Shown: positions 2,843 to 6,834 of the stretch, piece after piece
Numbering within the stretch: position 1 is the stretch's first letter
Layout: every line of letters begins with the position of its first letter
From: Nitrospira sp.
GTDB taxonomy: Bacteria > Nitrospirota > Nitrospiria > Nitrospirales > Nitrospiraceae
Direction of reading: 5' to 3'
Assembly (NCBI GenBank): GCA_029865225.1
Contig: JAOUHJ010000028.1
Coordinates: forward strand, 1-36,995
Length of the DNA: 36,995 bases
Program-made: the position numbers and the translations under genes
Notes under the pieces: model-generated
Databases searched by the model: none
Told to the model about the DNA's origin: nothing
Seen by the model: only the letters and a program-made list of their open reading frames with translations

Positions 2843-3655
2843 TCACACGGACACGGTCACCCGTAGAAACGTCGCCGGGATGGAGGTCGTCCCTTTCGTC
2901 GAACTTCGGTTTTGGGTCTCGAATAATCCCTCGAGCTGCTGCTGCAACTCACCTGCTCGCCCGTTCTTTTCGGCGGATTCGAACGCATTCATAGTGGGTC
3001 CGTAGTACTGTCTGAAGGTATCCACAAACATCGATGGCGTGCCGGGGTAGTTGAAGATATATGTCTCCCGGGCGAATGCAATTCGTTCTGCCAGCACTCC
3101 GGCTCCGGTAAATCGCTCGACTACATGGTTCTCGATGCCCCATGTCATAGGACTGATGAACCCTTCTGGTGGAGGAGGAGCGTACGCGGCGCTGATTTTC
3201 AGAATTTGCGCGACCAACGTCGGATCGTTCGGAATCCAGTTCCCCATCACAACCCGTCCACCGGGCTTCGTCACCCGCACCATCTCTCTGGCCACATCGA
3301 ATGGTCTCGGTGCAAACATAGCGCCAAAAATACTCATAGCAAGATCAAACGTCTGGTCCTTCAGCTCGTGTAAGTTTGTCGCATCGCCTTCCTGGAACAC
3401 GAGATTGGCGAGTCCCTGCTCTTGCACGCGCTTGTTTCCAGCCTGTACTAAGTTGCTTGCGATATCGACACCCAAAACCTCTGCGCCAATTTTCGCCGCT
3501 GGCACGGCTGTTGTACCGTCGCCACACCCAAGATCTAATACCTTGAGCCCTGGCCTGATTCCAAGTTGTTGGACCAACGCTTCGCCACTTTCTCTCATGC
3601 TCATCGCAATTCGAGTAAAGTCGCCTTTTTCCCAGAGAGCTTTATTCGGATTCAT
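2843..3655 (-). CDS. Class I SAM-dependent methyltransferase (UbiE/COQ5-like)
   Basis: This is a 270-aa Rossmann-fold methyltransferase. Motif I is VLDLGCGDGTTA (39-50), the acidic loop at the end of strand 2 is VLGVDIA, motif II lies around FDLAMSIFGAMFAP, and motif III is VRVTKPGGRVVMGNW. These show binding of S-adenosylmethionine. The C-terminal third (residues 165-270) is the variable substrate cap, so the acceptor cannot be read from sequence. The family includes quinone, sterol and small-metabolite methyltransferases. The gene stands alone, separated by about 100 nt from the upstream minus-strand gene. The ATG at 3655 starts a conserved-looking NKALWEKGDFTRIA segment common in this subgroup. 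The methyltransferase assignment is secure; the substrate is unknown. Confidence 0.85.
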   Translation of the reverse strand: MNPNKALWEKGDFTRIAMSMRESGEALVQQLGIRPGLKVLDLGCGDGTTAVPAAKIGAEVLGVDIASNLVQAGNKRVQEQGLANLVFQEGDATNLHELKDQTFDLAMSIFGAMFAPRPFDVAREMVRVTKPGGRVVMGNWIPNDPTLVAQILKISAAYAPPPPEGFISPMTWGIENHVVERFTGAGVLAERIAFARETYIFNYPGTPSMFVDTFRQYYGPTMNAFESAEKNGRAGELQQQLEGLFETQNRSSTKGTTSIPATFLRVTVSV

Positions 3656-3754
3656 GTATCGACTCCAGCTAGATGATAACGATGGGGTAAGCTAGACATC
3701 CAGCGGGCAAGAGTCAAGAGAGATGAGCGCGAGTGAACTTCGTTGTAAGACTGG

Positions 3755-4279
3755 TCAGGCAGCCAGCGTATCGGAAGCGGCCTTCTTCCCCTGCATACTA
3801 CGCGTGTCGAATCGCTCAGCCTTCGGTTGGAGGCTGCTCACCTTCCGCAGAATCATGGTTCGCAAGTCCTCGTCCTCAAGATTGGAAAGCGCTTCGCGCA
3901 CTCCTGCGACATCCCCGTCCTGCGCAAGATGGGCGGCAACACCGATGAGCGGTAAGGTGCCGGCCTCTCCCATGGCCTTGGCGATCTCGATGGCCCCGGA
4001 CCGATCTCCGGCCTTGACGAACACTTGCGGAAGCTCCAGATAGAAGTGACTTGCCAACAATGAACGATCCGGGCACGAAACAATCGTATCTTTCACGGCC
4101 TGGACATTCCCCCGCTCCGATTCGATGAAGAGCATTATTTGCCAGGCATCCCGGAGATATCGCCTATCGACCACTCCGCTGATGGTTTCTCGCGCGCCGA
4201 TCGTATCACCTGAAAGCGCTTGCCTGATCGCTTGATCCTTTAACTGTTCATCTGTCGGTGTCTGGGTTGGCATCATCAT
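3755..4279 (-). CDS. Helical-repeat protein (TPR/ARM-like), unknown function
   Basis: This 174-aa, mostly helical, soluble protein has no signal peptide. It is built of units of about 33-37 residues that each end in an A-x-[DE]-x-x-GA/V-like turn (SGDTIGARETI, RGNVQAVKDTI, AGDRSGAIEIAKAM, DGDVAGVREAL), suggesting a small TPR- or ARM-like scaffold for protein contacts. Three consecutive ATG codons (4279-4271) follow a very strong SD, GGGAGGAGG, so the exact first Met is uncertain by one or two residues. The last 20 residues (RFDTRSMQGKKAASDTLAA) look disordered. I do not recognise a named family. Confidence 0.7.
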   Translation of the reverse strand: MMMPTQTPTDEQLKDQAIRQALSGDTIGARETISGVVDRRYLRDAWQIMLFIESERGNVQAVKDTIVSCPDRSLLASHFYLELPQVFVKAGDRSGAIEIAKAMGEAGTLPLIGVAAHLAQDGDVAGVREALSNLEDEDLRTMILRKVSSLQPKAERFDTRSMQGKKAASDTLAA

Positions 4280-4535
4280 TCGCCTCCTCCCTTCGATCGA
4301 TTGAGGGTCACAATGGAATTTTCAGAACGTCTATTTCGAAATGTAGCGACGAAAGTCATTCTTGTCGACTTTTTTGCGCCAATGTAACAAGACCCGTTGC
4401 GAGCTCATCCACGTAGAGACTCAGCACCCGGCATCCGTCTCACGCACCGAGCGATGTGGTGAGCCTCAGGCAGATAACAACTGACGAGTAGCAGGGTTGA
4501 TTCTTCGCTCGATGCCGCAACCCTCACGGAAGACA

Positions 4536-5330
4536 TCAATGAGAATTGGGAGGCCATGGAGCTGCGAAGAACGCATGAAGATATGGTGCCAACGAAACCA
4601 TCCACCGATCCGCCATCTGGGATTCACCTGTTGCGTTGGGGTGGATCCCGTCACGTGTCATGGAATGCGGATCGAAGTGTGAATGTTGGTCGACGATTAC
4701 GACCGGTGAGAGAGGGACCGTCTTTTCCTTTGCAAGCATGGGTAACTGTGCATTGAACACAGGAATCTGTGACATACAGGGCGCGCTCGATGCGATCACC
4801 TGGGCCAAGAGAATGACAACACGGGGATTCGCTTTCCGTAGGGTATCGATAATGGCGCCCAGCTCTTCGACGGTGCTTGCGACACTTTGTCCTTGGCAGA
4901 GATCATTGTGCCCAAGATGAATCAGGACAAAATCTGGATGTGACTAAGCACTCCACTGTGCAATCTTGGCTAAGATTCGATCAGCTCTCCATCCGCTGTG
5001 TCCCTCCTGATCCATATCGAAGTCGGAATGTAGCGGTGTCCCTCCCGTTGCCCCGCGTTGGGAACCAACGAAGTCGATACGATATCCACGGGCACGCGCG
5101 AGCTTCCAGAGGTAATATCGATAGGTCGGCATCCGTTTTGATGATTCCGTGATCGAGTCACCCAACGGCATGATACGAGCCGTTCTGGGCGAAGCGGCCG
5201 CCGTCTGATGCGAAGCTTCGGTCTCATCAGACTCACAAGCCGAGAGCCCACAGATGAGTGCTACCCCGAGTGCAAGAACAGTCGATAAGCGGCGAGTACG
5301 GCGAGGAGGCAGTCTGAAAAGACGTAGCAT
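4536..5330 (-). pseudogene. SGNH/GDSL esterase lipoprotein (CE3-like) interrupted by an in-frame TAG
   Basis: The frame starts at ATG 5330, one base overlapping the stop of the upstream gene (TAATG), so translation is coupled. An N-terminal lipoprotein signal ends in LICGLSAC (lipobox LSAC). Block I is MPLGDSITES, followed by FVGSQRG and EGHSGWRADRI, as in carbohydrate esterase 3/XynB-like SGNH hydrolases. A TAG at 4944-4946 then stops the frame after about 128 residues. The same frame continues without a shift through block III (VLIHLGHNDL) and block V (DGIHPN, supplying the catalytic Asp and His) to a TGA at 4536. Apart from that codon all catalytic blocks are intact. The gene is therefore a very recent nonsense mutant, a sequencing error, or a readthrough case. 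A downstream-only product would lack the nucleophile Ser. Confidence 0.85.
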
Positions 5331-5982
5331 TATTCCTTCACAAAGATTCGTTGTCTCACAAAGCGTCCGGCTTGTATCTCGTCGAGGATGAACGCCGCAA
5401 GACTGGTACAGCTGATCATCGATAGCAATCCGATTCGAAGGGAGGCACTGGCCTGGACGCACGCTTGTGACGGCGAATCCATCAAACGCGGCGGTTTCAC
5501 GATAGTCCAGTCCAACCCACTCGATTCGACAAGGCGCTCCTGCTCTTCCCGATCTCGAATAGCCTGAGGATGCCATCTCGCAAATGTCCGAGCCATCCAC
5601 TCCATCGGGTGCGATCGGTTTGGCGCAGGTCCGATCATCGCACCTGTTTGGCAGACCAACCGCTTGCAACCCGCTTGCTTCATCGCCGCAATAATCGCAG
5701 TGATCGCCTTCGCACAGAATATATCGGTATAAGGAGGCCGTGGCCCAATCAGGCAACAAACGGCCACGCTGTCGGCAACTGTCTCAACGACCCGATCGAA
5801 GTCTTCAAAGTTGCCCCGCACGATCCGGCCATGAACAATGGCGCCTTCACCCCTACTCGTCGGGCGCACAAGTCCACACACCTCCCAGCCTTTTATGCCG
5901 GCGCCCCTGGCAAGTTCATGCCCGGTCCGACCACTGATTCCAAAGATCGCCAGCCTGCGAGTCATCAGGTGACTATCTTCCA
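5330..5982 (-). CDS. NAD(P)-binding Rossmann protein (atypical SDR, NmrA-like)
   Basis: This protein of about 217 aa has an N-terminal dinucleotide-binding fold. The motif IFGISGRTGHELARG is the GxxGxxG variant of atypical short-chain dehydrogenases. Later features are a DSVAVCCLIGPRPPY strand, GCKRLVCQTGAMIG, and the ESSGLDWTIVKPPRL segment typical of NmrA/YwnB-type proteins. The Ser-Tyr-Lys catalytic triad of classical SDRs is not evident, so it may be a redox sensor or a reductase of unknown substrate. Start choices are GTG 5998, ATG 5982 and ATG 5964; the last leaves the shortest lead before the Rossmann motif, and none has a strong SD. The stop overlaps the next gene by one base, indicating a two-gene operon with the esterase. 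Confidence 0.8.
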
Positions 5983-6115
5983 TGAAGGCTGACCACACTG
6001 CAATTGAGATCTATCGAAATGGAGGAAAAAGAGAAGGAACGGCGCAGGTTTAACCCATTGGCTTTCTTAATGTTTTTCCGATTACCTTTCGATGGTTTTT
6101 GTTTCCTCCATTCAC

Positions 6116-6450: not shown

Positions 6451-6648
6451 GTACAACCGCCATCCAACCTCTGATTTGTTCCCACTAGCCCCTCGATAAA
6501 CTCCGTGAATCGGCCATAGCCTTTGGTTTCCACGGTTCCTTGACCGTAAGACCATCGTGTGTTCGAATTTAGCATGGCATTACAACATGACATGGAGTAG
6601 CACACCCATCCGGCTGCTCATTGCTCAGGCGCGTTTGCGATCCAAGAG

Positions 6649-6834
6649 GTGAACTCCCATTTCCTGGAGGATGAGGAGCGGTGGCTTGGTTGTCTACGCA
6701 AGTACCCCGACTTCTGGGCGGAGGGACGCTCGTTTGCCGAGCTTGAGTACAACTTACGCAGACTGTTCTTCACCCTTTCTTTGGCGGAAGCTTTGAAGGA
6801 CGGGAGGATTATTCAGCACCCTCCCATCCGGTGA
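6649..6834 (+). CDS. Short HicB-like fragment
   Basis: This 61-aa frame begins at a GTG preceded by an AAGAG SD-like stretch. The stretch EERWLGCLRKYPDFWAEGRSFAELEYNLRRLF corresponds to the same HicB-like core as the gene at 6151 (W.G.L..YPD...G.S..EL...L). The N-terminal strand seen in complete members is shortened and no partner toxin follows. The short length and missing first strand suggest a decayed copy. The frame stays open 16 codons further upstream without a better start. Confidence 0.45.
   Translation: MNSHFLEDEERWLGCLRKYPDFWAEGRSFAELEYNLRRLFFTLSLAEALKDGRIIQHPPIR

Follow-up and report, generated by a model that had tools for sequence, protein, structure and literature searches.

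A single in-frame TAG in an otherwise intact CE3-like esterase lipoprotein gene of Nitrospira

Does a lone in-frame TAG within an otherwise intact esterase gene represent a fresh nonsense mutation, an error in the sequence, or a codon that is read through? The question is raised by a gene on the minus strand of a Nitrospira contig (C99), the whole of which, 36,995 nucleotides in length, was analyzed and is referred to here as the window. The genome totals 4.12 Mb in 169 contigs, with an estimated contamination of 1.3%. An initial annotation had noted the stop, had offered these three readings, and had described the rest of the frame, from a lipoprotein signal through GDSI, GHND and DGIH blocks, as free of frameshifts and other decay. 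The parts of the gene are as follows.

4536-5330, minus strand: SGNH/CE3-like esterase lipoprotein gene with one interruption, 264 codons plus TGA (from translation, PF13472, phmmer and Foldseek)
4944-4946, minus strand: premature TAG, codon 129 of 264; Gln or Glu in the orthologue column
4947-5330, minus strand: translated 5′ part of 128 residues, with the lipoprotein signal, Block I and the Block II region, without Blocks III and V
5246-5235, minus strand: lipobox LSAC, within the 5′ part
5162-5148, minus strand: Block I, GDSIT, within the 5′ part
4536-4943, minus strand: 3′ part past the TAG, under purifying selection on the window lineage (codon model)
4913-4902, minus strand: Block III, GHND, past the TAG
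4652-4641, minus strand: Block V, DGIH, past the TAG

This description of the gene was borne out. The frame runs from an ATG at 5330 to a TGA at 4538-4536, and the CTA at 4944-4946 of the plus strand, read as TAG on the coding strand, is its only internal stop. All of the named motifs, together with an EGHSGW region, lie in this one frame, and neither a frameshift nor a second internal stop was found between 5330 and 4536. When the sequence was shuffled with its composition preserved, the frame typically held ∼10 stops, and two or fewer occurred in 0.25% of shuffles.

The read-through frame matched PF13472 with 69.6 bits (cut-off 32.9) over residues 57-236, which span both sides of the TAG, and carries GDS(I/L) in Block I, Gly in Block II, GxND in Block III and DxxH in Block V, as members of the SGNH group do. 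Searches with phmmer matched the CE3 structures 5b5s (E = 4e-24) and 2vpt (E = 1e-22), and Foldseek, using an AlphaFold model of moderate confidence (pLDDT 64.5, pTM 0.65), placed CE3 structures at ranks 1 to 3. By sequence and predicted fold the protein is nearest to CAZy family CE3, and it is treated here as a putative esterase/deacetylase. In the SGNH scheme, the oxyanion-hole Asn is supplied by Block III and the catalytic Asp and His by Block V (PMC9487903). Because both of these blocks are encoded past the TAG, they are missing from the translated product, which would have the Ser without the Asn, Asp and His. We infer from the sequence that the activity of the 128-residue product would be lost.

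A search of 79 genomes of the genus, counting that of the window, found the esterase gene in 5. The other four are G013 (locus L037), G099 (L040, taken as the same locus as L038), G020 (L039) and G098 (L041). The gene order recQ, hypothetical gene, esterase, small hypothetical gene, arsM is common to the window, L037 and L038, and the esterases there are therefore considered orthologues. Aligning the orthologues, as had been proposed, revealed Gln in the TAG column in G013 and Glu in G099, G020 and G098; for three of the four codons, one base change would suffice to give TAG. All four genes are uninterrupted and show no indels within the domain relative to the read-through frame. The initial annotation had also allowed that orthologues might naturally end at the TAG; instead, all four continue to a C-terminus at about the same point. 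Residues aligned to the TAG site in 2vpt and 5b5s are ordinary polar ones, and in the AlphaFold model the site falls in a helix, at its final turn, ahead of the strand leading to Block III. Alignment and model together indicate that the TAG occupies a variable, non-catalytic position.

Although only 5 of the 79 genomes carry the esterase, its neighbors recQ and arsM are common to the relatives compared. A plasmid search returned only relatives less than 60% identical. The esterase of G098 is located between 139-base direct repeats (L041:1059-1197 and 2357-2495, 96% identical), which code for the C-terminus of a DDE transposase (a weak match, under the Pfam cut-off). This arrangement suggests that the G098 gene may have been moved or trapped by insertion sequences.

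Translational coupling of the esterase to the gene upstream had been described as preserved, and the features concerned are these.

5330-5998, minus strand: upstream, overlapping gene for an NAD(P)H-binding protein (PF13460), 73% identical to L037:3068-3721
5328-5332, minus strand: TAATG overlap of the upstream stop and the esterase start, with a GAAGGA Shine-Dalgarno-like stretch ahead

The overlap is real, but the word “preserved” does not hold, as the adjacency is absent from L037 and L038. In L037 (region 3071-5780), a convergent glutamine synthetase gene lies between the two genes, which are more than 2 kb apart, the 12-kb L038 locus gave no match to the NAD(P)-binding gene, and the match in L039 covers 64 residues only, a fragment. 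Judged from these loci, the overlap occurs in this genome alone and is not ancestral. It therefore provides no evidence of preserved function. Local rearrangement is evident around this sporadic gene.

Selection past the stop was estimated by codon maximum likelihood using five taxa and 206 codons, with a separate dN/dS on the window branch. Note that the branches are deep and the figures approximate: omega past the TAG was 0.25 on the window branch (0.22 in a richer model) versus 0.21 in the background (ΔlnL 0.16, no difference), and forcing that branch to omega = 1 past the TAG lost 11.8 lnL. The best value for the neutral fraction f of the window branch was ∼0, with a 95% limit of ∼11% if both halves decay and ∼24% if decay is confined to the 3′ part. 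Due to the background-level dN/dS past the TAG, a real stop should span at most ∼11% of the branch. The constraint test is compatible with a stop that is recent, not real, or not fully effective, and does not discriminate among these.

The TAG is probably best explained as a very recent nonsense mutation or a strain variant. The ancestral gene would have encoded an exported lipoprotein esterase or deacetylase of the SGNH type, nearest to CE3, in which a single very recent substitution converted a codon for Gln or Glu, located in a helix or loop at the surface, to TAG. We infer that the base is genuine, and the TAG may be either fixed in the strain or present in part of the population. Translation would be ended by RF1 after residue 128. 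The product would keep its lipoprotein signal and nucleophilic Ser but be without the Asn of Block III and the Asp-His pair of Block V, and is predicted to be inactive and probably unstable. The esterase, an accessory gene held sporadically, would now be a nascent pseudogene or else a null allele that can revert. As expected of a nascent pseudogene, the disabling change is absent from the orthologues. The scattered occurrence of the esterase across the genus indicates that its loss is tolerated. A very fresh nonsense mutation, one of the readings offered at the outset, fits all of the data; programmed readthrough or suppression is the one that gained no support.

The main rival is that the TAG arose as an error of sequencing or consensus calling, or was contributed to the contig by a minority strain, and that the organism itself carries an intact gene. 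A base mistake in an assembled genome would look identical to a fresh mutation, the TAG is the only decay in the gene, and the assembly is one of 169 contigs with some estimated contamination. Elsewhere in this assembly, however, internal stops were seen in 0 of 85 response-regulator matches and in 1 of 45 ABC-transporter matches (a short fragment). Since such stops are rare, single-base errors seem infrequent, and we regard this explanation as rather unlikely, though a serious contender.

Alternatively, low-level readthrough of the TAG by a near-cognate tRNA could produce some full-length esterase, the stop serving as an expression damper. The purifying selection past the TAG speaks for this reading, the lack of other decay fits a low level of readthrough too, and bacterial stops of this kind have been argued often not to cause pseudogenisation (PMC7918605). 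However, recency of the stop fully accounts for the constraint on the branch, and the TAG is in none of the four orthologues, so that readthrough, given also the decoding results below, is improbable. It is very improbable that the TAG is tolerated because readthrough is frequent enough to keep the esterase working, in which case the stop would act as a reversible dimmer for a surface enzyme.

Support for programmed readthrough or suppression was sought in RF1, tRNAs, TAG usage, continuations past stops, orthologues, the variable and non-catalytic site, and RNA structure, and was found in none of them. Programmed readthrough is recognized by a stop that different species share, with constraint before and after it, and no stop is present in any of the four orthologues. 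Amber suppression or reassignment of TAG is likewise not indicated. RF1 is intact (502 bits), and the CUA anticodon is absent among 44 tRNA matches obtained with an RF00005 scan and ARAGORN (one under the gathering score), a negative limited by the incompleteness of the recovered set, from which Ile, Ala-UGC and two Ser isoacceptors are missing. Nor did a genome search with a pattern of a CTA anticodon and a T-arm after it find the suppressor tRNA that the initial annotation had proposed looking for; the hits of this pattern within tRNAs were rejected as D-arm matches in tRNA-Gln and tRNA-Glu. A weak match in contig C98 was rejected as a truncated tRNA-Gly-like remnant. This remnant (C98:30004-30066, L087) resembles tRNA-Gly(CCC) without a normal 3′ half and is perhaps an integration scar. 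Pyrrolysyl-tRNA synthetase (PylS) gave no match above the cut-off of 178 bits; the sole match, of 20 bits, is a 500-amino-acid frame that is probably an ordinary class II synthetase.

TAG terminates 96 of 350 likely genes in a 426-kb sample of the genome. In a raw count, frames of more than 100 codons followed the stop in 21% of cases for TAG, 12% for TAA and 10% for TGA. This excess vanished in a test of coding character, in which coding-like in-frame continuations without a nearby start numbered four for TAG, four for TAA and one for TGA in the 426 kb. Genome-wide TAG readthrough was rejected on this basis, and the other in-frame TAGs that had been suggested as a check were not in excess. 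The TAGs flagged as internal stops in L041 and L030 proved to be where those genes naturally end. A stretch of 108 bases spanning the esterase TAG and the sequence past it folded no better as RNA than shuffles did (z = +0.95). Separately, window positions 6556-6834 contain a small plus-strand frame with 68% identity to L039:756-1037; an in-frame TAG lies at 6598-6600, toward the 5′ end of this frame. This region is likely leader sequence, with the true start probably further on.

That the gene is split, its C-terminal part being made by reinitiation and the two fragments assembling, is scarcely credible: the frame stays open for 135 codons past the TAG, but its first in-frame start there is a TTG at 4808, 45 codons on and beyond Block III, so the fragment would lack the oxyanion-hole Asn, and no orthologue is split.

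As an observation the finding is sound; as biology it is ordinary. It shows a gene at or just after its inactivation, or a base error, and serves as a caution that a lone in-frame stop in one assembled genome should not be taken as recoding. Larger significance would follow only if a genuine TAG occurred together with a full-length product.

Compared with known systems, the locus resembles pyrrolysine recoding of TAG in having an in-frame TAG within an otherwise intact frame. It differs in the PylS and CUA tRNA results given above, in the predicted non-catalytic site, and in the Gln or Glu of relatives. With CtCes3-1 (PDB 2vpt) and TcAE206 (PDB 5b5s), the esterase aligns at the GDS nucleophile block, the EGHSGW region, GxND and DxxH; unlike them, the Nitrospira protein, at ∼30% identity, is a lipoprotein with an N-terminal lipobox and is interrupted by a TAG. 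In-frame stops are reported to be widespread, and mostly short-lived, in bacterial genes under constraint, and sharing of a stop between species has been used to limit artefacts (Belinky et al. 2021, PMC7918605). That study focuses on stops present in at least two species, a filter that the esterase TAG, occurring in one genome only, does not pass. In other respects the gene is like the cases described there, with a single stop, a dN/dS of less than 1 around it, and a sense codon in the orthologues.
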